From: Actinomycetes bacterium
GTDB lineage: Bacteria > Actinomycetota > Actinomycetes > S36-B12 > UBA10799
Length of the DNA stretch: 10,526 bases
Assembly: GCA_029779995.1 (NCBI GenBank)
Contig: JAKOZM010000347.1
Location: 1 to 10,526 of the forward strand
Direction of reading: 5' to 3'
Position numbers and translations under genes: made by a program. The notes beneath the pieces are model-generated. The model did not search any database and was not told where the DNA came from. It was given only the letters and a program-made list of their open reading frames with translations. Of this stretch, positions 1 to 10,526 are shown one piece after another. Position 1 is the stretch's first letter. The number at the start of each line of letters is the position of its first letter.

Positions 1-656
1 GGAACGTAGACCAGGCGAACACCGACCGCGCCGAGCGTCTTCGGCAAATCGGCGAAATCCGCAGGGGTCTTGAGTGCCTGCGGTAGGGCGGCACCGACCG
101 CTTCGAGTGCCTCACGCGAGTAATTGCCCGTCATCGATGTCCGGCGCGAGGCGTGTCGAACCATGTACAGCCAAGAGATCTGCAGGGACGAGAGGGACTC
201 GCCGTGGTTGGAGCGCTTCGCGGCAGCCGCCAAGCTTGGTTCGTCATCGAGTGATTTCAACTCGAAGAACTGGCGGACTTCATCCTCCAGCTCGTCAAGC
301 GACGTGGCAGCGAGCACTCCTGCCTTCTTGAGCAGCGAGATGGGGCCCTTCTCGTTCAGCCGCGCACGACGACGCACGTCGTCTAGGTCGCTCTGCGACT
401 TGGCGTCCTGCTTCTGCAGCCACAGGAGGTACTGATCTTGAAGGCTGAGCCACATCTCGGCGCTGGTCCCGAGGGCAGCGCCAATCTGCGCAGCGGACTC
501 TCGAGTGATCTCCTTCTTTCCGGAGATGATCTCGGAGACGAACTGCGCTGGGCGGTCGAGGATGGCGGCGAACTCGGCCTGAGTCCAGCCACGAGCCTCA
601 AGCTCCTCAGCGAGGAACTCTCCTGCCGGAAACACCTCGGCCAGTGCAGCGTTCAT
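1..656 (-). CDS. higA: HigA-type antitoxin with XRE helix-turn-helix, long form (partial, runs off left edge)
   Basis: The frame opens with ATG at 656-654 and stays open to the window edge, giving 218 visible codons. Residues about 15-65 look like an XRE/HigA helix-turn-helix: FLAEELEARGWTQAEFA, then LDRPAQFVSEIISGKKEIT, then a closing helix ending in SAEMWLSLQ. This is the pattern of HigA/VapI-type antitoxins. It should bind its own operator and neutralise the toxin encoded just upstream. The protein is longer than the roughly 100-aa minimal HigA. After a helical linker, residues about 200-218 (LPKTLGAVGVRLVYV) resemble the entry into the ImmA/IrrE-like (COG2856) domain of long antitoxins; the metallopeptidase motif, if present, lies outside the window. 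A GGAGAG ribosome site lies about 8 nt before the start, and the gene begins 20 bp after the toxin stop, so the two are co-transcribed. The family call is strong, but the C-terminal domain is inferred. Confidence 0.85.
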   Translation of the reverse strand, partial: MNAALAEVFPAGEFLAEELEARGWTQAEFAAILDRPAQFVSEIISGKKEITRESAAQIGAALGTSAEMWLSLQDQYLLWLQKQDAKSQSDLDDVRRRARLNEKGPISLLKKAGVLAATSLDELEDEVRQFFELKSLDDEPSLAAAAKRSNHGESLSSLQISWLYMVRHASRRTSMTGNYSREALEAVGAALPQALKTPADFADLPKTLGAVGVRLVYV

Positions 657-676
657 CTCGGTCTCTCCATCGATGT

Positions 677-976
677 TCAGTGATAGTCGACAACCTCAAG
701 GAGAACCGCCACTCGGTCCCTGTCGGTCTTGAACGTGAGGATCAGCCGGAACTGATCGTTGAGGCGCATCGACGTCTGTCCCAGGCGATCACCCTTCAAC
801 TTCTCCATCCGTAGACCTCGCATCGCGTAGAGGTCACGCTCGTCTCGCGCTGCGGCGATGACCTGGACCTTCTTCCGGTACGACCTGATGACCGTCGGAT
901 CCCAGCCCTTCGGTGCGAAGCTCAACTCCTCGGCCAGCCTGCGCAGCACCTCGTCGTGGTACTCGACGCGCAACAT
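677..976 (-). CDS. higB: HigB-type (RelE superfamily) toxin
   Basis: This 99-aa protein has the standard length and motif order of HigB toxins. It shows a central YAMRGLRMEKLKGDRLGQTSMRLN-like stretch (residues about 50-73, quoted here by its key elements KGDR at 61-64 and RLNDQFR at 71-77) and a C-terminal VVDYH (95-99). These are the hallmarks of PF05015/HigB, a RelE-fold endoribonuclease that cleaves mRNA on the ribosome. Catalytic assignment rests on family knowledge: basic residues around 61-77 and the terminal Tyr/His would form the active site. The ATG at 976-974 is preceded by a GAACGAGG ribosome site. The toxin-first order followed by an XRE antitoxin 20 bp downstream is typical of higBA and unlike relBE. 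Its likely role is a stabilisation or abortive-infection module of the island. Regulation is probably by HigA binding in the 977-1170 region. Confidence 0.88.
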   Translation of the reverse strand: MLRVEYHDEVLRRLAEELSFAPKGWDPTVIRSYRKKVQVIAAARDERDLYAMRGLRMEKLKGDRLGQTSMRLNDQFRLILTFKTDRDRVAVLLEVVDYH

Positions 977-1078
977 GACCTCGTTCCATCACCCCAGAGA
1001 TGAAGACCCGCACGTGCCAGATCCTAGGCGGACCATGTTGCCATGTGGCCCAGACACGCCCCCATCCCGCTAACTCAC

Positions 1079-1111
1079 TACTGGTCTTCACCTCTTAGGT
1101 GAAGACCAGTA
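1079..1111. repeat. Perfect 15-bp inverted repeat with 3-nt centre, probable operator
   Basis: The arms are TACTGGTCTTCACCT (1079-1093) and AGGTGAAGACCAGTA (1097-1111), perfect reverse complements around CTT. It ends one base before the extended -10 of the rightward promoter, so a protein bound here would cover the -35 region and block RNA polymerase. A dimeric helix-turn-helix regulator fits; the nearest candidate in view is the XRE antitoxin HigA. As RNA it would form a hairpin, but it lacks a T-tract and lies upstream of the predicted start site, so a terminator role is less likely. The dyad itself is certain; the operator role is inferred. Confidence 0.75.
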
Positions 1112-1120
1112 TGCTATATT
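1112..1120 (+). promoter_or_regulatory. Extended -10 promoter for the Ubl operon
   Basis: TGC followed by TATATT (1115-1120) matches the extended -10 consensus TGnTATAAT at all but one position and is strikingly AT-rich for this high-GC region. No convincing -35 is seen, which is normal for extended -10 promoters; the position is occupied by the palindrome. The start of transcription would be near 1127, giving a leader of about 44 nt before the ATG at 1171. Confidence 0.55.
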
Positions 1121-1170
1121 TGTCCTCGCCGGACAACCGCCGGCCAGCAACCTCGACGAACGGAGCCAAC

Positions 1171-1440
1171 ATGTCCGACAGCACCAGCAGCCCGGCACAC
1201 GACAAGACCTTCACGGTGGTCATCAACGGCACACCGCACACCCTCGAGCGAGAGCTCGTCAGCTACGAGATCCTCGGCGGGCTCGCCTTCCCCGGGCATG
1301 ACCCAGCCGCCATCTTCACCGTCGCCTACAAGAACGCGATCACTGGACATGGAGGCAGCGGGACGCTCGTGGCGGGCGAGTCCGTGAAGGTCAAGAAGAA
1401 GGGGACGAGCTTCGATGTCCGACTCACGACTCGTTCGTAA
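1171..1440 (+). CDS. Ubiquitin-like beta-grasp protein (multiubiquitin family, single domain)
   Basis: This 89-aa protein fits the multiubiquitin (PF14452) beta-grasp pattern. It has a disordered Ser-rich start (residues 1-12), a first strand FTVVINGTPHTL, a helix ERELVSYEILGGLAF, an exposed strand FTVAYKNAITGHGGSGTL, the loop VAGESVKVKKKG and a last strand SFDVRLTTRS. In such operons this protein is adenylated at its C-terminus by the E1 and attached to targets. The C-terminus here is TTRS, not diglycine, as expected for this family, where the conjugation-competent tail differs from ubiquitin. Many relatives carry several tandem domains; this one has only one. I chose ATG 1171 over the GTG at 1099 because GGAG lies at 1162-1165 and the homology begins after it. 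The last 26 nt overlap the next gene, which implies translational coupling. Function is inferred from family and neighbours. Confidence 0.8.
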   Translation: MSDSTSSPAHDKTFTVVINGTPHTLERELVSYEILGGLAFPGHDPAAIFTVAYKNAITGHGGSGTLVAGESVKVKKKGTSFDVRLTTRS

Positions 1441-2659
1441 CAGCCCCGACCTCCAGCGGCTCGTCAGCGACGGTTACACCGTCCGCCTCGTCAACGGCTA
1501 CCTCGTCGTGGACGACATCCCCTACGTCGATTCCACGGCAACGATTCGGTGGGGCTCCTTCATCTGCCCCCTGGACCTTGCTGGCGACCGGACCACCAAG
1601 CCCAACACCCACGTCATGGCCTTTGTCGGATCATCACCGTGCAACCGCGACGGCAGCGAGATCTCGCCCGGCTTCGCCAACCCAGGCCTCACGTCCGGCT
1701 GGACCGCCGGACCCGAGTTGACGCCCTCGGTGGGCTTCTCGCAGAAGCCCAACCCGGACGGGTACATCGACTTCCACGAGAAAGTGACCACGTACGCGGC
1801 CATCCTCGTGGGCCCCGCCCAGGCGATCGACTCAGCAGTCACTCCCCTTCAGGGCAAACCCTTCACAACCGATGAGGACGACGGGGTGTTCGTCTACCTC
1901 GACACCTCCTCCAGCCGCGCAGGCATCACCAGTCGTACGAGCCTGCTCGAGTTGTCGAAGGTTGTGATCATCGGCCTCGGCGGCACCGGCGCCTACCTGC
2001 TCGACCTCCTCGCCAAGACGCCCATCGGGAACATCCACCTGTACGACGCCGACACGTTCAGCACTCACAACGCCTTCCGGGCGCCCGGCGCCGCCTCGAT
2101 CGACGACCTGGTCGCTCGGACGACGAAGGTTGAGTACTACGCGGTCATGTACGCCCGGATGCGCCGCAACATTCACCCTCACACAGTCCATGTCACCGCT
2201 GCCAATGTCGCCGAGGTGACAGACGCTTGCTTCGTGTTCCTCGCGATGGATTCGAGCCCGGACAAGCTCGCGATCATCGAAGCGCTCATCGCCGCCAACG
2301 TTCCGTTCATCGACACCGGTGTGGGAGTTGACGACGACACGGGCGGGATCGCTGGCCAGGTTCGGGTCACGACGGCTCTCCCGGGCGCATCCGAACATGT
2401 AACCCGCGGCGAACTCATCTCAGGGGAGGCGGGAGACGCAGGCCTCTACGACACGAACCTTCAGGTTGCAGAGCTCAACATGGCTGCGGCCGTGATGGCC
2501 GTCATCCGCTTCAAGAAGTGGCTGGGGTTTTACGCCGACGCCGAAGGTGAGCTGCACAGCAGCTACCGGATCGACACCAACGAGATCCTCAACAAGTACG
2601 GTCGGATCCTCGAGGACACGGAAGCCGAAGAAGGGCCCCATGAGGCTATGCAAACTTGA
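1415..2659 (+). CDS. E1-like ThiF-family adenylyltransferase with N-terminal DUF6791/E2-like region
   Basis: This 414-aa protein has two parts. Residues about 15-165 match the DUF6791/E2-like module found fused to bacterial E1s, including GYLVVDDIPYV (28-38), THVMAFVGSSPC (65-76) and a tail before FVYLD (159-163). Residues about 175-370 are a ThiF/E1 Rossmann domain. The nucleotide loop is VVIIGLGGTG (183-192), followed by HLYDADTFSTHNAFR (208-222), which supplies the acidic and Asn/Arg residues of E1s, and by FLAMDSS (275-281). It should bind ATP and adenylate the C-terminus of the upstream Ubl. Only three cysteines are present: C51, C76 and C272. C76 in the E2-like part and C272 in the E1 part are candidates for transfer chemistry, but a Ser/oxyester route cannot be excluded. 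No CxxC zinc pair, common in ThiF/MoeB, is seen. ATG 1415 lies within the Ubl gene, with AGGGG upstream. Its stop overlaps the next start. Confidence 0.85.
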   Translation: MSDSRLVRNSPDLQRLVSDGYTVRLVNGYLVVDDIPYVDSTATIRWGSFICPLDLAGDRTTKPNTHVMAFVGSSPCNRDGSEISPGFANPGLTSGWTAGPELTPSVGFSQKPNPDGYIDFHEKVTTYAAILVGPAQAIDSAVTPLQGKPFTTDEDDGVFVYLDTSSSRAGITSRTSLLELSKVVIIGLGGTGAYLLDLLAKTPIGNIHLYDADTFSTHNAFRAPGAASIDDLVARTTKVEYYAVMYARMRRNIHPHTVHVTAANVAEVTDACFVFLAMDSSPDKLAIIEALIAANVPFIDTGVGVDDDTGGIAGQVRVTTALPGASEHVTRGELISGEAGDAGLYDTNLQVAELNMAAAVMAVIRFKKWLGFYADAEGELHSSYRIDTNEILNKYGRILEDTEAEEGPHEAMQT

Positions 2660-3029
2660 GCCGGCGTTCGTCACGTACGTGCCGGGCGACCTGGAGCAAG
2701 GAACGCTATACGTGTCGATGGAGTACTCGACCGCCGTACACCTGTGCGCATGCGGCTGCAGAACCAAGACCGTGACTCCGCTTGCCACTGACGGTTGGAC
2801 ACTCAAGTTCGATAGCACCGTGACGTTGCGGCCGTCCATTGGTAACGGCCAGTCGCCCTGCCGCTCGCACTACCTGATCACCAGGGACGCGATCGAGTGG
2901 CTACCCGCAATCGGCGTGGCAGCTACCCGAAGGGCCGTTGCGCGAGATCAGGAAGCGGCAGCGGCGGTTCGTCGCCCGCGGGGGACCTGGTGGGCGCGGA
3001 CAGTGACTAGGTTGCGGCGTGGTCGGTGA
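2640..3029 (+). CDS. DUF6527-type Cys/His-rich protein, third gene of the Ubl operon
   Basis: This 129-aa protein carries the recognisable DUF6527 signature: HLCACGC (34-40), GWTLKFDSTVTLRPSIGN (52-69) and PCRSHYLI (73-80). The clustered C36, C38, C40, C74 and H34, H77 suggest a metal site or a catalytic centre. DUF6527 genes sit beside multiubiquitin and DUF6791-E1 genes, so a role as peptidase or processing factor for the Ubl is plausible, taking the place of the JAB/DUB enzyme of Bil operons; this is inference. The C-terminal 35 residues are Arg/Ala-rich and look like a positively charged tail. The start is ATG 2640, overlapping the E1 stop by 20 nt, with GAAGAAGG upstream. A longer reading from 2547 lies wholly inside the E1 gene and has no DUF6527 similarity, so it was dropped. 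No terminator was seen after the stop. Confidence 0.75.
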   Translation: MRLCKLEPAFVTYVPGDLEQGTLYVSMEYSTAVHLCACGCRTKTVTPLATDGWTLKFDSTVTLRPSIGNGQSPCRSHYLITRDAIEWLPAIGVAATRRAVARDQEAAAAVRRPRGTWWARTVTRLRRGR

Positions 3030-3048
3030 CAACGCTTCGGCTCTACCT

Positions 3049-3146
3049 TCACTCACGCTTGTGGAGGGCGTACGCGAGTTCGAACTGCTGCCGCTCGTCG
3101 AGGGAGTCTGCGAACTGGCGATAGCGGGCGCGGGCCTTCGACGTTG
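3049..3146 (-). pseudogene. Orphan C-terminal coding tail, unidentified
   Basis: One minus-strand frame ending with TGA at 3051-3049 reads TSKARARYRQFADSLDERQQ and continues FELAYALHKRE to the stop, a well-behaved protein-like sequence with good codon bias. It begins exactly where similarity to tniQ stops (about 3146) and is in a different frame from it. It therefore looks like the surviving 3' end of another gene, joined to the tniQ remnant by a deletion or insertion. I do not recognise the family. Confidence 0.3.
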
Positions 3147-3762
3147 TTGTCGAGGTGGTGGGTCGGGCGCCGGTACGGGGCGCGGGCGGCGATGACGAGA
3201 CGGGTCAGGGTCGGGGTCGTTACTGTGCGGTCGGCCAGCCACCCAAGCGGCCCTCGTTGGTGGTCGGGGTGAGCGCGGTCCACGGCGTTAGGCGGGCAGA
3301 GGCCGTGTCGACGTCGGGGGCGGTGAGTATGCCGTCGGCCGTCGCCAATACTGCAGCGCGGAGTACGGCGTTTTCGGGTGGGCGTCGACCCCAGCGCGGT
3401 CCGCGATCACGGCTGCGCGCCGAGATCCCTCGGCCAGGTCGGCCACCCAGGGAGGCCCCTGCGTGGCGCGGGTTGCCGTGCGAGGTGGAGCAGGAGCGTG
3501 GTGAGGTGGCGCAGGTCGCTCAGGTATGCCGCGCGCCCTTGACCTGCCGCCCGAGGACGGGCACCGCATGCCCGGCGAGGGCCGCGTCGGCGCGGCGCTG
3601 CAGGGCGGGGACGCGCTCGTCGGAAGGCTCGGTGGGGATGGCGGTGAGGTCGTGCTGGCACTGCTTCGTGGGGCCGACGCCGAGTGGGTTCCCGCACACG
3701 GTGGCGGCGCCGACCCGGCGGAGGTGGCGTTCGAGGACACGGTCCGACGCGGGCGTGCATCC
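3147..3762 (-). pseudogene. tniQ: Decayed tniQ copy (middle part only, frameshifted)
   Basis: Fragments in several minus-strand frames match the intact tniQ at 6043-7734 in order: CGNPLGVGPTKQCQHDLT (intact: CGNPLGAGPAKKCRQELT), then YLSDLRHLTTLLLHLA (intact: YLHDLRHLATLLLHLA), then GPLGWLADRTVTTPTLTRLV (intact: DHTVM in place of DRTVT). The DNA is collinear with the intact gene at an offset of about 3480 bp, for example identical 15-mers at 3325-3339 and 6805-6819 and identical 13-mers at 3229-3241 and 6708-6720. Small indels break the frame. Both the N-terminal zinc-ribbon part and the C-terminal third are missing, covering only residues about 163-365 of 563. The copy is diverged and not a recent duplicate, so it probably comes from a related transposon. 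No product is expected. Confidence 0.8.
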
Positions 3763-3935
3763 GGCCTTTGATGCGGTCTTCCAGGAACGCCCGTCGGTGA
3801 CCGCCCGGGCGGCGTACCAGACACGCACGTCGGGTCGTCGAGGCGGTCGAGCAGGACCATGACGTGGCCCCACGTCAGTTGCGCAACAGCTGCTGCGCAA
3901 TTGGGGTCCGGCCACTCTCGGGCGAGGGTGCACAT
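3763..3935 (-). pseudogene. DUF1016/YhcG-type N-terminal fragment, frameshifted
   Basis: From about 3935 the minus strand reads NCAAAVAQLTWGHVMVLLDR followed by LDDP. After a one-base deletion near 3835 it continues DVRVWYAARAVTDGRSW. This is the conserved N-terminal motif of DUF1016 proteins (typically AVAQIPWGHN.VLLD, then R.WYA..A...GWSR), which precede a PD-(D/E)XK nuclease domain in the YhcG family. The fragment ends about 55 codons in and runs directly into the tniQ remnant in the same frame. The His of WGH is kept, but the rest of the protein, including the nuclease domain, is absent. It is dead and marks a recombination joint. Confidence 0.65.
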
Positions 3936-4179
3936 GTATGGCAGGCTCGATCCTCAGCGATCCGAGGTCGGTCCTCCATGCGTCCATGGGTGCCTTGGGT
4001 TTCGGGATCACACTCGGATGAACACCTCACGCATTGGACCGCCGTCGGTCCTAGGAGGGTAGCCCCGAGCTATGCCTGCGGACCAGAACTCCGGCACCCT
4101 CGATGCCCGGGAGGCGCCCGCTTGGTCGCCGGCAAGAGCATGTGGGCCGTTAAGGCCAGATAGAGAAGGCCTCGGCGAG
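3936..4179. other. Gene-free stretch between the debris and the 564-aa gene
   Basis: No open frame here has recognisable similarity or a ribosome site. A minus-strand frame continues upstream of the DUF1016 fragment to an ATG at 4011, but its residues show no family pattern. A short GGCC-GTTAA-GGCC stem at about 4144-4156 lies just past the stop of the 564-aa gene and is too weak to call a terminator. The stretch may hold the former 5' region of the DUF1016 gene or a transposon edge. Confidence 0.4.
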
Positions 4180-5874
4180 TCAGTGGTAGCCGTGGGGGCT
4201 CCAGCCCTTCATGTGCGGCTGTAGCTCGTCGGGGGTTGCTTGGATCTTGCTGATGATGTTGAGGTCGCCGTTGAGCGGGTCGACGCGGTCGGCATGGTCG
4301 CGAAGCCACTTGGCCCATTCCCCGGCGGCGACAGTGGCCTCCCCGTCGAGTTGGCCGGCTCGCAAGTCGACCTCGTTGGCGTAGTCGCGGAGCCACGTCG
4401 CCGTCTGCCGGTCCTTGAGCTGGCGGACGGCTTGTTTGGCGTTGCGTTCGTACCGGACCTTCTCAAACGCGGCTGCACGGATTTCTTCGCCGCGCTCCTG
4501 ACGGATCTTCTGGCGACGCTTCCGTTCCTGCCACTCCCACTTCTCCTCCGCGACGCGCAGCTCGAGCTTGCGGATTAGGACGGCCAGTTGGTCTTCCAAG
4601 GGCGCCCCGGGCTCGTCGCTGAGCCGAAACAAGTCCGTCGCACCCCAACCCGTCGTTACCGTCACGGTCAATCGGCCAGAGGGCTCGAAAGCCTTGTTGG
4701 CGACGGTCTTGGAGGTGTGGCCGCGGTAGTAGTCCCATTCCTGGACGTACGGTGAGGGCGATCGCCGCCGATTTCCCGCTGCGGCTTCTCTGATCGCTAG
4801 TTCGTACGTGGTTGACCCGATGCGGAACTCCAGATCCGTGGCTGAGTGGATGTCGTTCCCGCCGAACGAGCGGCTCACTTTGTCGGTGACCTTCCAGCCC
4901 ACGATGTCACAGGCGTCCACCACCCCTTGGAGGAAGCGGCCGGCCCTGGGGATGCTGCCTTTCGAGACGTTCGCGCGGCGCTCGAGAAAGCGTTCCACGG
5001 CCGGGTGCTTGGTCTTGGGCATCCGCCCGGGTGCCTTCAAGGTGCGAACCGGGATGCGCTGCTCGTAGTCGGGTCGCAGATAGAGAGTGAACCCGAGGTC
5101 GGGATCCATGCGGATGTGCTCGTGAGCGAGCTTCTCACCCTCAGGGAGTGTCCCGAGGCGGCGCGCCTCGCGTTCGATCCGGAGGAGTTCGCTCTCGGTG
5201 TAGTCGTGGGCGACGTCGACACGGCCCGCGCTGAGGAGACGATCCATGAGGTCCGCGGCTCGCTGCTGCGCAAGGGCGGCCTCGCGGGCTTGGCGTTCCT
5301 TCTCGGCTGCCTCGGCCGCTTCGCGTGCGGCCTTTTCGCGCAGACGCCGGGCCTCTTGGTCGACGCGTCGCTGTCCGTCTGGGGTGATCGTGGCGGCCCA
5401 ACCTGACCGGCTACCTGTCAGGCGAATGAGTCCGCGGTCCCGCAACGCAAGCAGGGTGCGGCGGTTCGCGATCTCAGAAGTGCGTCCAGCCTCGGCGTTC
5501 TCCGCGATCGCCGTGAGGATCGCGAACTGAGCCGGTGTCAGGTGGCTGTTGGGCGACTTGCCCGAGCGGGCGGGCGGGACGGCATTCACCGGCTGAGTCG
5601 TGGTTCGATCCTTGTTCGTCTTGCGCACTCGGGACGCACCCCTCGCGACGGCGTCGAAGGCCTCGACGGGGTAGGCATCGTTGGCTGCGTAGTAGCGGCC
5701 GGCCTCGGTCAGCGTGGCGGTCCAGACGCCTCTGCGTCGAGTGACGGTGGCGAGCCCGCGGTTGGCCAACGCGCGGGCAGAAGTCTTGAACTCCTCGCGC
5801 GGCGGGTGAGTGCTGCCCCCGTCGGCGAGCCATTGAAGGACTTCGCGCTGGGCGGCGTTCAGGTCCCTGTTCAT
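4180..5874 (-). CDS. Uncharacterised 564-aa protein with duplicated winged-helix-like repeats and charged helices
   Basis: I do not recognise a named function. Residues about 5-63 and 112-172 are two copies of one winged-helix-like unit; both keep the pattern AL-x-x-RGL, then a W-x-A-T-[LI]-T hairpin (ALANRGLATVTRRRGVWTAT and ALRDRGLIRLTGSRSGWAAT). An Ala/Glu/Arg-rich helix, probably a coiled coil, spans 173-210. A mixed domain with TDLEFRIGSTTYELAIRE (346-363), WDYYRG and SGRLTVTV (399-406) follows. A second charged helix (436-490) comes next, then a short repeat WLRDYANEVD / WLRDHADRVD (494-503, 523-532). The 346-532 layout resembles a widespread unnamed bacterial family with a Y-RGH-like then SGRL motif and WLR-repeat tail. 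No catalytic motif or membrane segment is visible. ATG 5874 has only a weak GGACC ribosome site. The gene lies 168 bp after tniQ in the same direction, so it is probably cargo or a transposon-linked regulator. Confidence 0.7.
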   Translation of the reverse strand: MNRDLNAAQREVLQWLADGGSTHPPREEFKTSARALANRGLATVTRRRGVWTATLTEAGRYYAANDAYPVEAFDAVARGASRVRKTNKDRTTTQPVNAVPPARSGKSPNSHLTPAQFAILTAIAENAEAGRTSEIANRRTLLALRDRGLIRLTGSRSGWAATITPDGQRRVDQEARRLREKAAREAAEAAEKERQAREAALAQQRAADLMDRLLSAGRVDVAHDYTESELLRIEREARRLGTLPEGEKLAHEHIRMDPDLGFTLYLRPDYEQRIPVRTLKAPGRMPKTKHPAVERFLERRANVSKGSIPRAGRFLQGVVDACDIVGWKVTDKVSRSFGGNDIHSATDLEFRIGSTTYELAIREAAAGNRRRSPSPYVQEWDYYRGHTSKTVANKAFEPSGRLTVTVTTGWGATDLFRLSDEPGAPLEDQLAVLIRKLELRVAEEKWEWQERKRRQKIRQERGEEIRAAAFEKVRYERNAKQAVRQLKDRQTATWLRDYANEVDLRAGQLDGEATVAAGEWAKWLRDHADRVDPLNGDLNIISKIQATPDELQPHMKGWSPHGYH

Positions 5875-6042
5875 GTCCGGTCCAAGGTCATGTCGTCAGG
5901 ATCCCTATCGCTTCCGACAGGGGCAAGGTGAACCTGGTCGCCAAGAGCCAGATTGCGGCTGGCCTCACCCGGGGGCGTCCACTCCTGAGCCTAGGTAGGG
6001 GCGCCGCATTCGTCCCAACACTGTTGGGACGATTGCCTTTGA
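5875..6042. promoter_or_regulatory. Intergenic region between tniQ and the 564-aa gene
   Basis: This 168-bp gap likely holds the promoter for the 564-aa gene. On the minus strand, TTGGGA (inside the palindrome, 6027-6022) and TAGGCT (about 5992-5997) could serve as -35 and -10, but the 19-bp spacing is long. A second candidate -10, TAGGGA, is near 5902-5907 with no good -35. The calls are weak; only the palindrome is certain. Confidence 0.3.
6010..6032. repeat. Perfect 11-bp inverted repeat with 1-nt centre
   Basis: The arms TCGTCCCAACA (6010-6020) and TGTTGGGACGA (6022-6032) are perfect reverse complements about C6021. The dyad starts 10 bp past the tniQ stop codon. The near-zero loop and the lack of a T-tract on either side argue for a dimeric protein-binding site rather than an intrinsic terminator, although an 8-bp stem with a 7-nt loop could still form in the RNA. 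It overlaps a possible -35 of the 564-aa gene. I found no second copy in the window. Confidence 0.6.
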
Positions 6043-7734
6043 TCAGGTTCGATCTGATTCCCGATCACCGCCGCTGATGCTGGCGAGGCGCGCCCTGTCG
6101 CCCTCGGACAGGCTGCGGTTGAACTTTCGGAACCCGGCCCGCTCCGCCGACGTCGGTGCGTGCGGCCACCCAGGGCTGGTGCTGAGGTGTCCACTGGCGA
6201 GTTGCGTCCACACCCACGCCACGGCATACGGTCGCGACGACGCGCGGGTCCCCGGTCGTGCGGCAGCGAAGGCGTTGAACCACGTGTCGTCGCAGAGAGC
6301 CCGAATGTCGCGCTCACACTCTCGCCAGTCGACGTGGGGTAGATCGGCGGCGACGGACCGCAGCCGAGCGAGAAGGACGGGGATGGGGAGCCGGAGCCTG
6401 GCGCTGCAGGCGCGAGCCGTGCGCACGGTCAGGTCGTCGGGAAGCCCGAGGAGGTGACCGGTGGCGCTCCAGGTGCTCGCGCGTGGGTCGGTTCGGGCCA
6501 GGCACATCGTGGTGAAGAGCCGGACGGTCTCCGCGCCAGAGTCGAAGGCGTCCGCCAGATGGCGCTCAAACAGCTCGGTGGGCAGCATCTGTGGGATGTG
6601 GCGAAGCGGAGCGAGGCGTTCGGTGTGATCGAGCAGCGTGGACAGGCGGCGGTGCGGGGCTCGCGCCGCGAGGACCAGCCGAGTGAGGGTTGGTGTCATG
6701 ACGGTGTGGTCGGCCAGCCAGCCCAAGGGCCCGTCCGGGGTCGTGGGGGTGAGTTCGGTCCAGGTGGCCAGCGCGGCTGTCGCGTCGTCCAGGTCGGCAG
6801 CGGCGAGTATGCCGTCGGCGGCCGCCAACGCTGCCGATCGGACGCCCGGGTCGTCCGGCGGGCGCAGACCCCACCGGGGGCCGCGCGCACGAGTGCGCGT
6901 GACCGCGTCACTCGTCAAGCCGGTCACCCATGAGGCGAGCCGTTCGGCCCCGGTTTGTCCGGCCAGATGGAGAAGGAGGGTGGCCAGGTGTCGCAGGTCG
7001 TGCAGGTAGGAGGCGGCTGACACCGGCTCTCCCAGAACGATCATCTGCGCGCCGTTGAGCGCTGCGTCGATGCGCGCCTGCGTGGCCAGTACGTCATCCG
7101 TGGCTGGGACTGCACGGATGTCGGTGAGCTCTTGGCGGCACTTTTTGGCCGGTCCAGCCCCGAGCGGGTTGCCGCAACGGGTGCTGGCGCCGACGACGCG
7201 CAAGTGGGAGTGGCGCTGATCTCGGAACGGCCGTTGACACGACGGGCAGACCGCGCACAGCAGGTTCTGGTGGCGACGACAGCTGGTGACGATGGGCAAA
7301 CGCCAACTGCTCTGCCAGACTCCCTTTTCAGAAAGGCAACGCGGACAGATCTGGGTTCCACGATGGGGCGCCCATCCCGGAGCCGCGATCTGCCGGTAAG
7401 AATCTCGGTTGTTCGGGTTGAGATTGGTCAGGTCGAGGGCGGTGCCGTCGAAGGTGGCCATCGTTGCGGCATACACCTCGCTCTCGCTGACTCGGGCGAT
7501 GGCCGCCACTGTGGCGACCGTCTCCGGTGCCGGCGCGATGGTGAGGAAGCGCGTGTGGGCACCGGATTCTCGGATCATGGTGAGGACGGCAGCGGTGCTG
7601 AGACCGTTGAGTTCAGCGAGGTGTTCCAGCCAGGACTCGATCGACTCCCCGGGTCTGGGCGTCAGCGTCGCCGGCAACACGTGTGTCGCACGGCTGGTGG
7701 CCCCTGCCGGCATGGAGCCTGATGGTTCGGTCAC
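6043..7734 (-). CDS. tniQ: TniQ-family transposition protein (second, 563 aa)
   Basis: TniQ proteins link the target site to the TniA-TniB (TnsB-TnsC) transposition machinery. The N-terminus has the family pattern LTPRPGESIESWLEHLAELN (residues 24-43). Zinc-binding pairs follow: C130/C133 (ICPRC), C152/H155 (SCRRH), and C160/C163/C166 (LCAVCPSC). A further pair may be C187 (RCGNPLG) with C199. The rest is helical, ending in the family-typical YAVAWVWTQLASG and FRKFNRSLSEGDRARL. The start is GTG 7734, sharing 4 nt (GTGA) with the stop of the preceding gene, which indicates coupled translation. An internal ATG at 7713 is an alternative. At 563 aa it is longer than the roughly 400-aa Tn5053 TniQ, closer to TnsD-like members. 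A decayed relative lies at 3147-3762. Confidence 0.88.
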   Translation of the reverse strand: MTEPSGSMPAGATSRATHVLPATLTPRPGESIESWLEHLAELNGLSTAAVLTMIRESGAHTRFLTIAPAPETVATVAAIARVSESEVYAATMATFDGTALDLTNLNPNNRDSYRQIAAPGWAPHRGTQICPRCLSEKGVWQSSWRLPIVTSCRRHQNLLCAVCPSCQRPFRDQRHSHLRVVGASTRCGNPLGAGPAKKCRQELTDIRAVPATDDVLATQARIDAALNGAQMIVLGEPVSAASYLHDLRHLATLLLHLAGQTGAERLASWVTGLTSDAVTRTRARGPRWGLRPPDDPGVRSAALAAADGILAAADLDDATAALATWTELTPTTPDGPLGWLADHTVMTPTLTRLVLAARAPHRRLSTLLDHTERLAPLRHIPQMLPTELFERHLADAFDSGAETVRLFTTMCLARTDPRASTWSATGHLLGLPDDLTVRTARACSARLRLPIPVLLARLRSVAADLPHVDWRECERDIRALCDDTWFNAFAAARPGTRASSRPYAVAWVWTQLASGHLSTSPGWPHAPTSAERAGFRKFNRSLSEGDRARLASISGGDRESDRT

Positions 7735-9104
7735 GCCAAAGCACCCACCCTTGTGTCGGCGCCTTGACCGAGGACGGTGTCCAGCGTCAGGTCAGAGGCG
7801 AGAAGAGTTGCCCCATAGTCGGCGAGGACGAGCCTGCCCTCCGCGGTGAGCGATTCGTTGAACTCGCGAAGACTGCGCTGTTTGAGCGGGTGGGGACCGC
7901 CGCGCGGAGTTCCCCGGGTGTGGTGGATCCAAATCCATGCGGCAGCCAACTTTGCAGTCTCGGCGTCGATCCGCAGGCCCGGGACACTGCGGAGGATTGA
8001 CGTGGGGGCGCGCCGCAGACCCGCCAGTACGGCGCGGGCGTGATGGAAGTCGGTCAGCCCTTCTTGGTTGAGCCGGTGCACATGGTGGGTCAGGTAGGTC
8101 AGGCCGGCGACGCTGTTGCCTAAGTCGGTGGCGAGGGCGGTGGAGTCCTTCCTCGGCAGACCGAGGATGGACCAGAGCGATTCCATCCGTGGCCGTCGAC
8201 TCTCCCCGCCAGGACCACCGCGAACCAGCACCAACTCCCTCAGGAGCGCCAATGCCGCATTACGACTGGCCTCCTGCTCCTGCTGACCCTCAAGGAAGAC
8301 CTCGGGCGTGCGCGAGAGCGCTGCAGGGACATGCTGCTGGCCCAGGCCGACCTCGGCGATGGCCCGCCACAGTTCTGCCCGGGCCACGGCGACCTCGAGA
8401 GCATCGAGCAATGTTTGTTCGTCGCGATCGTTCGCGGCCCGATCGACCAGTTCGGTATCGAGGGCTACTGTCAGCCGTGCCGCGCGGAAGAGCGCGGGGC
8501 TCTGACTCGACTGCCACGACGCGACCAGGACCCGAGCCTGCGTCGCCAGGTCCTCGTCGGGCACGACGGCCATGCCATAAGCCCTCGTGAGTCTGCGGAA
8601 CCGCTGCAGGCGCGGGTCCTCGCGATCACGAGTGCGGGCGAGCAAGGCCAAGAGCTCGCTTTGGGCGATCCAGAGGTCGCCCAGTTCGAGCGGGGTGAAG
8701 TCAGGCGCAGAATCGGTTCGGCGACGTAGAGGCGATCCACAGTCGGGGCAGACCAAGACCCATGCCACCCGCGTCCACAGGTGGCCGCTGCGTCGGCAGC
8801 AGCTGCACACCATCGTCATCGGGTCACGCCGCGGCAACTGCAACGCTCCGGGCAGGCGACAGCCGAGGGTCTGGGCGCTTAGCGTGTTTCGGCCAATCCC
8901 GACCGCATGGGAGAGGGACCGCACGGTCTCGACGGAGGGGTCGTCATAGAGCCCCTGAAGGCTGGTCGGCGCTTCCGGCCAGAGTTGCTTGACTGTCAGC
9001 CCTAGCCGCTCTGCCACCCGATGGACCATCGCCGGCAATGACTCCCCGGGCAGGAGCTGGACATAGACCGGCAGGCGATCTGGCCGCCGCTTCGCCCTGG
9101 TCAC
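7731..9104 (-). CDS. TniQ-family transposition protein (first, 457 aa)
   Basis: The N-terminus LPVYVQLLPGESLPAMVHRV (residues 11-30) is the TniQ signature. A zinc ribbon follows: C100/C103 (CSCC) and C119/C122 (CPDC). The end shares AWIWIHHTRG and LREFNESLTAEGRLVLADYG with the other TniQ (AWVWTQLASG, FRKFNRSLSEGDRARL), so the two are distant paralogues. The open frame extends to 9515, but the first 137 codons lie antiparallel-free inside tniB in another frame and are not protein-like. GTG 9104 starts 1 bp after the tniB stop and immediately before the TniQ homology, so I chose it; with TniB's GCCAGTGGGCAG just upstream, AGTGGG may serve as ribosome site. Two TniQ-type proteins in one element usually mean two target pathways or a complex of both. 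That role is inferred. Confidence 0.8.
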   Translation of the reverse strand: MTRAKRRPDRLPVYVQLLPGESLPAMVHRVAERLGLTVKQLWPEAPTSLQGLYDDPSVETVRSLSHAVGIGRNTLSAQTLGCRLPGALQLPRRDPMTMVCSCCRRSGHLWTRVAWVLVCPDCGSPLRRRTDSAPDFTPLELGDLWIAQSELLALLARTRDREDPRLQRFRRLTRAYGMAVVPDEDLATQARVLVASWQSSQSPALFRAARLTVALDTELVDRAANDRDEQTLLDALEVAVARAELWRAIAEVGLGQQHVPAALSRTPEVFLEGQQEQEASRNAALALLRELVLVRGGPGGESRRPRMESLWSILGLPRKDSTALATDLGNSVAGLTYLTHHVHRLNQEGLTDFHHARAVLAGLRRAPTSILRSVPGLRIDAETAKLAAAWIWIHHTRGTPRGGPHPLKQRSLREFNESLTAEGRLVLADYGATLLASDLTLDTVLGQGADTRVGALA

Positions 9105-9105
9105 C

Positions 9106-10152
9106 TCACTGCCCACTGGCCGTGGCCATCGCCTCAGCCCGCGCGGTCTGGTCCTGGGCGCGGCCGCTGAGCCGGACAGCGTCGAAGTGGGCACGGCCCA
9201 GCGGCTCGCCCGTGGCGAGGGCCGCGGTAGCGGCGTCGATGACGACAGTGGCCGTGTCCCCAACGAAGCCTTGGGTGCGGGACCAGAGGTATGCCGCGTG
9301 ATGGCGGGCGAGGTAGCCGGGCGGTTCGCCGGGTAGATAGGGCGACAGCATCTCCTCCAAGCCACGCAGGAGGCGCTGCCAGTCACGTCGACCGGCTGGG
9401 GTATCGATCGCGTAGGGAGCGACCGTGTGTTCGGAGAGACGACCGCGGATCTGCGGGTCGGACAATGCCTCTCCACCAGAGATGTGGGCGCCAACCAGGA
9501 CAAGGACGCCGCCATGCTCCCCCAGTGTCGTGTTCAGATGCTTGACCGCATTGAGGGTGGCGCGGCCAGTGATGCTGCTGGTACGCAGCATGTGGGCGTC
9601 ATCGATGATGAGCAGCCGAATCTGGTGCAAGCCGAACGATTTCGTGGTTTGCAGCGCCATCCGGGTCTCGGTGCTCTCGGCGGCTTTGATGTTGCCGATG
9701 AACCCCAGGATCTGGGCATAGAGATCCCGGCTGCGCGACTCGGACTGCAGCGACAGATAGACCACCGGCACCCAATCGGCCATCAGCCCCGGCTCCGGAG
9801 CCCAGCGCGGACACGAATCAGAGGCGACGTCGCCCAGCCAATGACGGTGCAACGACTGGGCCCACGCCTTGACGAGCGTGGACTTGCCCGCCGTGAACGG
9901 CGCGGACACAGCAATCACGGTTCGTGCGCCGGCCGGCGCCAGCATCGCCGACTCCAACGCGAACGTGAGATCGGCACTGACTCGCTCGTGAACCGGAGAA
10001 GGGACAGGTCGACCTCGCAAGGCGATCCTGACCGAGTCGGCATACGCGGTCCGCGCCTCAGGTGACGAAGCGGCCAACTGTGCAGGTGGCAGGGGCGCCG
10101 GCAACGCTGGCGGCGGACTGGTCGCTTGGGCGTGCCAGAGTTGCGCATCCAT
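9106..10152 (-). CDS. tniB: TniB-like AAA+ ATPase of a Tn7/Tn5053-type transposon
   Basis: This 348-aa protein is the ATP-dependent regulator (TnsC/TniB type) that bridges TniQ at the target and the TniA transposase. The Walker A is IAVSAPFTAGKSTLVKAW (80-97), with K90 and S91. The first glycine of GxxxxGK[ST] is replaced by A84, unusual but compatible with an AAA+ fold. The Walker B is RLLIIDDAHML (179-189) with D184/D185. Sensor 1 is probably GVLVLVGAH (215-223), and IRGRLSEH follows as the expected Arg finger/sensor region. The Pro/Ala-rich first 30 residues are a flexible tail that may contact TniA. The length is close to that of TnsC-like proteins. ATG 10152 overlaps the tniA stop by one base (TGATG). 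Confidence 0.88.
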   Translation of the reverse strand: MDAQLWHAQATSPPPALPAPLPPAQLAASSPEARTAYADSVRIALRGRPVPSPVHERVSADLTFALESAMLAPAGARTVIAVSAPFTAGKSTLVKAWAQSLHRHWLGDVASDSCPRWAPEPGLMADWVPVVYLSLQSESRSRDLYAQILGFIGNIKAAESTETRMALQTTKSFGLHQIRLLIIDDAHMLRTSSITGRATLNAVKHLNTTLGEHGGVLVLVGAHISGGEALSDPQIRGRLSEHTVAPYAIDTPAGRRDWQRLLRGLEEMLSPYLPGEPPGYLARHHAAYLWSRTQGFVGDTATVVIDAATAALATGEPLGRAHFDAVRLSGRAQDQTARAEAMATASGQ

Positions 10153-10526
10153 CAGTCGCCCACGTCGTCATAGTCCGGCCAGACCTCATCGACATCGACA
10201 ACGGTTGCCGATTCGCGGATCCGTGCCCGTGCTGGACGGAGGGGGACCACGTTGCTGTCCGGCTGACCATCGACCAAGACCCGAGCCTCTGCAGCCTCGC
10301 AGTGGTCGATCAGCGCCTGTTGGTGACGGAGCGCGGCTGCGCCGAGTTGGGTGCGCCATTCCTCGACCGACGGTGGCGTGGTGAGTTCGCCGATTGCGTC
10401 GATGATCTCGTGCATGGTGCCGCGCCGGGACAGGACGTTGTTGCCGCCGCGGGCCTTGATCAACTGCCGGGCGCGCTGGACCACGACATCCGTGAGCGGC
10501 GCATCGACGAGGCCCGCGTGGCGCCA
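10152..10526 (-). CDS. tniA: TniA/TnsB-like transposase, C-terminal end (partial, runs off right edge)
   Basis: The frame is open from the right edge to the TGA at 10154-10152, giving 124 visible residues. An internal GTG at 10484 is not a real start, because the coding frame continues to the edge. What is visible is the basic/helical C-terminal tail (VVQRARQLIKARGGNNVL, then an acidic end DVDEVWPDYDDVGD). The catalytic DDE core and the Mu C-terminal beta-barrel would lie outside. Identification rests mostly on position directly ahead of tniB and tniQ, with a TGATG overlap to tniB, as in Tn5053/Tn7-like operons. The acidic tail resembles TnsB tails that bind the ATPase; this is inference. Confidence 0.65.
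   Translation of the reverse strand, partial: WRHAGLVDAPLTDVVVQRARQLIKARGGNNVLSRRGTMHEIIDAIGELTTPPSVEEWRTQLGAAALRHQQALIDHCEAAEARVLVDGQPDSNVVPLRPARARIRESATVVDVDEVWPDYDDVGD

Follow-up and report, generated by a model that had tools for sequence, protein, structure and literature searches.

Bacterial operons that combine a ubiquitin-like protein (Ubl) with an E1-type activating enzyme have been described in several forms, and the subject of this work is one such operon, located in a 10,526-nucleotide (nt) stretch of the Actinomycetes bacterium contig JAKOZM010000347.1 (the whole stretch is hereafter the window, to whose proteins all residue numbers refer). Its products are a Ubl, a fusion of a DUF6791 domain to a ThiF/E1 adenylation domain, here called X-E1, and a DUF6527 protein (Table 1). 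The closest described systems are those grouped as type 6e by Iyer, Burroughs and Aravind in 2006 (PMC1779556), the relevant passages of which describe, as a fifth operon type, one to three Ubl domains with an E1 fused to a JAB domain, and a subset, including an actinobacterium (Frankia), in which a "domain X" of the E1 replaces JAB. The same passages list a metal-binding finger protein of the pattern C-x3-C-x(35-38)-H-x2-C and an inactive E2/RWD-like domain, separate or fused, that is not present in every member. What the window operon has in common with this account is the Ubl gene, a ThiF protein with a non-JAB N-terminal domain and a C-x3-C finger partner. In contrast to it, no E2/RWD-like domain was found in the window or in the X-E1 loci collected here, and the finger reads C36-x3-C40 ... 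C74-x2-H77, with the second pair in a different order. From position and motif we infer that domain X is DUF6791 and that Y, the finger protein, is DUF6527. Membership of the operon in type 6e, in its X-E1 form, is well supported by these sequence features, and the gene set, already listed in 2006, is no new kind.

Other described systems share parts of this architecture. The Synechocystis pSYSX cassette holds Multi_ubiq, Prok-E2_E, JAB-ThiF and DUF6527 genes; to the extent that it is covered in PMC4963859, the only source on a bacterial multiubiquitin domain in the literature searched, it resembles the window in its Multi_ubiq, ThiF and DUF6527 genes and in an adjoining helix-turn-helix (HTH)/ImmA-IrrE pair, whereas it differs in its separate Prok-E2_E, its JAB-ThiF E1 and a Ubl ending in TTTEG. 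Bub operons provide the best solved match of the ThiF part (BubCD, 9ea5) and, in the sections of PMC13373217 on regulation, the same kinds of regulator, but only the ThiF part of X-E1 matches BubCD, and DUF6791 does not match the BubCD N-terminus. Bil operons (BilABCD), as outlined in PMC11354881, have a Ubl and an E1 in common with the window, which unlike them lacks both a separate E2 and a JAB gene. The Cap2/Cap3 pair of the cyclic-oligonucleotide-based antiphage signalling system (CBASS), in the portions of PMC10097602 on conjugation, is alike in an E1 joined to another domain and in a modifier with a single small C-terminal residue; the modifier here, however, is not cGAS, on which replacement of the C-terminal Gly by Ser, the residue that ends the present Ubl, abolishes Cap2 conjugation while Ala is tolerated. 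The PADLOC model for a CBASS E1-E2 protein was not matched across the E2 and E1 parts, its only matches lying within residues 164-289 (best E-value 3.5e-8). No paper naming DUF6527, DUF6791, PF20590 or PF20137 was found in a search outside which the main Bub papers lay.

We read the window operon, with a little less than even confidence, as a mobile module for Ubl conjugation, regulated by stress, in which a Ubl with a serine end is activated and a separate E2 is not needed. Both conjugation and defence we infer from its genes, and its purpose is probably defence or a stress response.

Table 1. Features of the window (positions in nt; strand as + or -)
Feature	Position	Strand	Basis
Ubl, single-domain, 89 residues	1171..1440	+	PF14452 Multi_ubiq
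Ubl C-terminal tail TTRS, inside the overlap with the E1 gene	1426..1437	+	Tail counts, 79 loci
X-E1, 414 residues, DUF6791 fused to ThiF/E1 adenylation domain	1415..2659	+	Pfam
DUF6527, 129 residues, predicted zinc-binding	2640..3029	+	PF20137 4.4e-20; C36, C40, C74, H77 plus H34, C38
HigA-like regulator, N-terminal 218 residues with HTH, cut by the window edge	3..656	-	Pfam HTH_3 1.2e-6
HigB-like toxin, 99 residues	677..976	-	Pfam PF05015 8.5e-9
Second dyad copy, one mismatch, near the HigB start	989..1003	+	Dyad scan
Perfect 15-bp palindrome with 3-nt centre, proposed shared operator	1079..1111	.	TCACC-N5-GGTGA at 1088-1102
Degenerate tniQ-like stretch	3166..3727	-	69% identity to 6645-7207
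TniQ, TniQ-like and TniB genes, plus the end of another transposon gene	6043..10526	-	Pfam

A conserved three-gene unit

A preliminary description of this DNA had named three overlapping plus-strand genes, a single Ubl with a TTRS end and a Cys/His-rich DUF6527 protein, in an operon lacking both a separate E2 and a JAB gene; the open reading frames (ORFs) of the window and their Pfam matches agree with it on each of these points. The four expected profiles (PF14452, DUF6791, ThiF and DUF6527) all matched in the expected proteins. The Ubl, whose C-terminus reads VRLTTRS-stop, matches PF14452 with 46.9 bits against a cut-off of 24.5 (E 3.1e-12), while X-E1 divides into DUF6791 (PF20590, residues 11-164, about 1445-1906; 2.3e-45) and ThiF (PF00899, residues 178-325, about 1946-2389; 9e-14). 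A beta-grasp fold of the Ubl is suggested by the PF14452 match together with a profile match to 9cd2, a solved multi-ubiquitin-domain protein, that is weak and not significant (E 0.089) and spans most of the domain.

The arrangement is more than a chance one, its relatives being numerous and nearly uniform in gene order. At E<=1e-3 the searches returned 2659 E1 relatives among 7998 scored candidates, 171 Ubls and 263 DUF6527 proteins; a genome-collection search with the E1 alignment confirmed 431 relatives, and the locus counts given here refer to the best 80 of these 431. Profiles of the three protein sets recovered the order Ubl, E1, DUF6527 in 78 of the 80 loci, all from other genomes, which bears out the proposal that the three genes form a complete unit. 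The Ubl was found by profile in 79 loci and was missed in L052, where only its tail is visible; L053 (Sphingobium naphthae) has no detected DUF6527 downstream of E1, and in L043 DUF6527 stands at a distance of 1,953 nt. The window genes overlap by 26 nt (Ubl/X-E1) and 20 nt (X-E1/DUF6527), and the 26-nt distance from the E1 start codon to the end of the Ubl gene is kept in 79/79 loci with a called Ubl (77 ATG, 1 GTG and 1 TTG starts), none of which has a gene between Ubl and E1. Because of this invariant overlap, the operon is a tight unit whose translation is almost surely coupled.

Proposed Ubl activation and the transfer question

The residues of the ThiF part that we take, by analogy with MoeB, to serve adenylation are nearly without variation: G187, G189, G190, G192, D211, D213, R222, K238 and D279 are kept in 80/80 loci and N219 in 79. 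No cysteine is conserved in this part, the commonest Cys column (277) being occupied in 29 of 80 loci. Its profile finds BubCD (9ea5, 2.5e-9) ahead of TcdA (4.2e-8), UBA5 (1.8e-6) and MccB (7.9e-5) among solved structures, and the E1 passes NCBIfam PRK06153.1-4 (409.8 bits, cut-off 352) and does not pass TIGR02356, the MoeB/ThiF equivalog (35.4 bits against a cut-off of 275). With PRK06153 over its cut-off and BubCD as the best solved relative, the enzyme is not merely MoeB/ThiF-like, and the neighbours read contain no thiamine or molybdopterin genes.

The Ubl tail, too, is conserved. Of the 79 tails, 77 close with Ser and 2 with Ala, position -2 is K (44), R (28) or Q (7), and position -4 is T (77) or S (2), giving the consensus T/S-x-[KRQ]-S/A; a Gly-Gly end occurs in none. 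The last Ubl codon varies (TCG, TCA, TCT, TCC, AGC, GCG), as does the E1 residue read from it in the overlapping frame (R 39, H 25, L 12, P 2, A 1), so it is the Ubl, not the E1, that keeps the terminal Ser in place. In the mechanism we favor, the X-E1 ThiF domain would bind ATP and adenylate this C-terminal Ser on a Ubl that is ready-made, with no extension to trim. Given that the Gly-to-Ser exchange on cGAS kills Cap2 conjugation, a Ser-ended Ubl may use unusual chemistry or be met by a different enzyme pocket.

The same data bear on a reading without conjugation, in which the E1 modifies the Ubl C-terminus for some other use, either as a sulfur carrier or in a MccB/TcdA-like reaction. The TcdA and MccB matches and the tail without Gly-Gly are in keeping with it, but the neighbours read hold no sulfur or cofactor genes, a (poly)Ubl with one to three domains is conserved and has a partner finger, and the upstream regulators are of the kinds found at immune operons, so we regard this reading as distinctly unlikely.

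In the favored mechanism the activated Ubl would then pass to a target without a separate E2 and without a conserved ThiF-domain cysteine, the likeliest transfer site being the fused DUF6791, with Cys/Ser/Thr 51, His66, Cys76 in many members, and Ser109-x-Lys111; alternatively, the target might attack the adenylate directly. H66 and P75 of DUF6791 are invariant in the 80 loci, and S109 (79), Y117 (79), Y127 (79), K111 (76) and K123 (75) are nearly so. Position 51 is S in 50 loci, C in 21, T in 8 and Y in 1, and position 76 is C in 59, R in 10, H in 10 and F in 1. A Cys thus stands at one or the other position in 75 of 80 loci, which makes a transfer role of the domain possible, and at neither in five (L020, L026, L032, L053 and L074). 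In 120 close homologues Cys51 is universal, with position 76 distributed over R (61), C (54), H (3), A (1) and F (1). This pattern fits either one nucleophile place, open to Cys, Ser or Thr, or a choice between two cysteines, but descent alone may be a sufficient cause. A reading of X-E1 as cysteine-free was considered and is too strong in the face of these counts; because of them we lowered it and raised the likelihood of an E2-like relay.

That relay would make DUF6791 a diverged E2-like domain and X-E1 a protein that performs both E1 and E2 work through a Cys thioester, and we judge it rather unlikely. It draws on the cysteine at 51 or 76 and on the invariant H66 ten residues ahead of C76, a spacing that we take to be that of the E2 H-P-N...C motif. 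E2-E1 fusions do exist, Cap2 being an example in the parts of PMC10097602 cited above. Against it, hhalign gave 1.4% for DUF6791 versus Prok-E2_E and 0.1% versus JAB, with 99.2% for a ThiF-ThiF control, in a comparison outside which the A- to D-type E2s lay; other E2 families passed their cut-offs in too few genomes for profiles (PF14461 in 3/150, PF14457 in 2/150 and PF14462 in 5/398). When 45 members were scanned in Pfam, DUF6791 was the only significant match (best other match E 0.066), and no solved relative came below E 0.57. At position 76, moreover, 66 of the 120 close homologues have R, H, A or F and 21 of 80 loci have no Cys, and five loci have neither cysteine. The "E2-like" label that the preliminary description had given to the N-terminal part is therefore not confirmed by sequence: the part is DUF6791, for which these searches showed no E2 kinship.

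The comparison of X-E1 loci with JAB-E1 loci clarifies the place of DUF6527. The JAB-form sample comprised 15 loci, 14 of them plasmid regions chosen from sets of 119 and 98 records, plus pSYSX. DUF6527 is present in 15/15 (one copy unannotated), as are a JAMM-like motif in the E1 (Pfam Prok-JAB was found in 10 of 11 scanned and missed in L108) and E2_E, as a separate gene in 8 and fused in 7. Among the eight with a separate E2_E, four Ubls (L081, L099, L100, L101) end in TTEG itself and three (L104, L105, L110) add a short extension to it, with L108 ending otherwise. The preliminary description had DUF6527 replacing the deconjugase; as a JAB substitute it was rejected because it is common to the X-E1 and JAB-E1 forms. 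DUF6527 as a deconjugase is accordingly highly improbable: the operon has no further gene for this role and its DUF6527 protein is predicted to bind metal, but DUF6527 coexists with a JAB-E1 bearing the JAMM-like motif in all 15 loci, and the place of JAB is taken by DUF6791. By position DUF6791 stands for JAB, perhaps also for E2_E.

DUF6527 would act instead, by our favored mechanism, as an adaptor or target-selecting E3-like partner built on its C-x3-C...C-x2-H finger. The ligand columns are shared by both forms (of 28 sequences, C36 in 28, C40 in 26, C74 in 26 and H77 in 28), whereas H34 and C38 occur in 47/47 X-form proteins (13/13 in the cross-form comparison set) and in 0/15 and 3/15 of the JAB form, respectively. 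C38 is possibly catalytic or the sign of a changed metal site. On the former view, the X-form finger would have gained H34 and C38, and C38 would take the Ubl from the E1; in its favor, the JAB-form E1 differs in its cysteines, with further conserved ones at columns 354, 357, 450 and 453 in 13-14 of 15 and at column 300 in 15/15. H34 or C38 may, however, simply bind metal as additional or substitute ligands, an enzyme homologue is not known (best PDB match E 1.4), and L053 lacks DUF6527, which leaves transfer by the finger clearly unlikely. A more specific proposal, in which an E1 without a catalytic cysteine of its own passes the adenylated serine-ended Ubl to a DUF6791 Ser, Thr or Cys or to finger C38, under a metallopeptidase-antitoxin switch acting at a shared operator, strikes us as fairly improbable in this complete form.

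The divergent HigBA pair and a putative shared operator

Upstream of the operon, a HigB-like toxin gene and an HTH antitoxin gene give the window a type II HigBA make-up, as judged by Pfam from the genes alone. Full-length relatives of the truncated HigA are 358-448 residues long as called and include an ImmA/IrrE (Peptidase_M78) part; the relative in L003 matches HTH_3 and Peptidase_M78 (5.1e-5; 23.5 bits, cut-off 22), and HExxH is found in 18/18. HigB and HigA stand divergently upstream of the Ubl in 18 of 79 loci, namely all 18 with an E1 identity of at least 51%, and HigA without HigB occurs in two more. The toxin-antitoxin pair of the preliminary description is thus present, but not as a mere neighbour: being divergent in every locus of the close clade and sharing a dyad with the operon, it belongs with it and is no chance neighbour.

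The dyad core TCACC-N5-GGTGA recurs in the HigB-Ubl intergenic regions (977-1170 in the window): of 19 regions (the window, L001-L017 and L082, with L073 left out), 14 hold it exactly and all 19 with at most one mismatch. In 200 single-base shuffles the mean was 0 regions for exact and 0.11 for one-mismatch matches, with maxima of 0 and 2, and a search with looser spacing found 14/19 regions against a shuffle mean of 0.02. The window contains four dyad matches where 0.59 are expected, two of them elsewhere. A simple scan also lists the 1079-1111 palindrome as a terminator-like hairpin, but since the core recurs in all 19 regions a terminator is only a minor alternative. We propose that the divergent HigB and HTH-metallopeptidase HigA would repress themselves and the operon from this shared site, and that stress would release the repression, in the way reported for CapH+CapP, which act on CBASS and Bub operons.

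Other loci carry related regulators. Of the 80, 76 had room upstream. A scan of the 58 of these that lie outside the HigBA clade found, among 88 minus-strand ORFs, Peptidase_M78 (13), WYL (3), STAS-like DUF4325 (2), HATPase_c (1) and RES (1) and, among 40 plus-strand ORFs, LexA (2), Peptidase_M78 (1) and DUF2188 (7). The sections of PMC13373217 on the Bub and CBASS operons describe DNA-damage-responsive regulators of the same kinds: CapW (WYL), CapH+CapP (HTH and peptidase) and CapK+CapS (STAS). The predicted likeness of the window is to the CapH+CapP type, with HTH and ImmA/IrrE peptidase in relatives and a dyad in the promoter. A small DUF2188 gene, responsible for the 7 of 40 plus-strand ORFs above, also recurs beside Ubl operons of both forms (L084, L101, L105).

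Mobility, function and significance

The three-gene operon is an accessory, mobile unit. Relatives are found in Actinobacteria, Proteobacteria, Bacteroidetes, Elusimicrobia, Acidobacteria, Chloroflexi, metagenome-assembled genomes (MAGs) of Kiritimatiellae and Akkermansiaceae, and one MAG labelled Nitrosopumilus. The E1 occurs in 115 of 72,556 plasmid records, 83 of the 115 typed as conjugative or mobilizable, and three E1 relatives were confirmed in viral contigs, one across most of the protein. A scan for DUF6791 in the kin of G001, the nearest genome, was positive in 0 of 58 genomes; it gave 0 for 14 standard controls and was positive for 7/7 known carriers. Window positions 3605-10526 are present in G001 at 95% identity (C1:340406-347349; L118, L122), and 1-3604 are absent there; beyond the junction G001 carries instead a pair of ORFs on the minus strand, 299 and 779 residues long. 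Carriage beside a transposon, as first proposed, holds for the Tni genes of the window, and Tni genes also lie downstream of the operon in L001 and L003.

Several further observations concern the surroundings. A minus-strand ORF of 564 residues at 4180-5874, which occurs in G001 as well, weakly matches the phage protein family NF050184 in two stretches (35/65 bits). In L087, a Klebsiella plasmid, an X-form operon stands beside TnsD-like, ATP-binding and DDE transposition genes. Annotated neighbours at L100, L103, L111, L082, L110 and L084 comprise a SAVED protein, SIR2, dCTP deaminase, restriction/methylase genes and DUF4433 with a macro domain, a set with the appearance of a defence island, seen without control loci.

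Reading the operon as a stress-regulated conjugation module for defence has to be set against several points. Five of 80 loci have neither DUF6791 cysteine, and of the candidate transfer residues only His66 is common to all. The Ser end could, by analogy with the Cap2/cGAS result, signal a different reaction. The E1 was met in 0 of 50,697 phage records, and PMC13373217 states that protection against phage has not been shown for Bub operons. Of the 128 upstream ORFs scanned, the majority match no regulator named here, and those tallies come without a random-locus control and from related loci that are not independent.

Taken at this strength, the comparison of the two forms separates what may be swapped, JAB plus E2_E for DUF6791, from what is always kept, namely the Ubl, ThiF and DUF6527. 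The proposed shared operator would offer a direct handle on toxin-antitoxin-like control of a Ubl operon. Ester- or finger-borne Ubl transfer would, if true, mean that an E1 pathway can use a new kind of transfer chemistry. If the operon does conjugate, it would represent a Ubl pathway cut to three short genes, useful for asking what part of the E1-E2-E3 cascade is essential and how ubiquitin-like tagging began.

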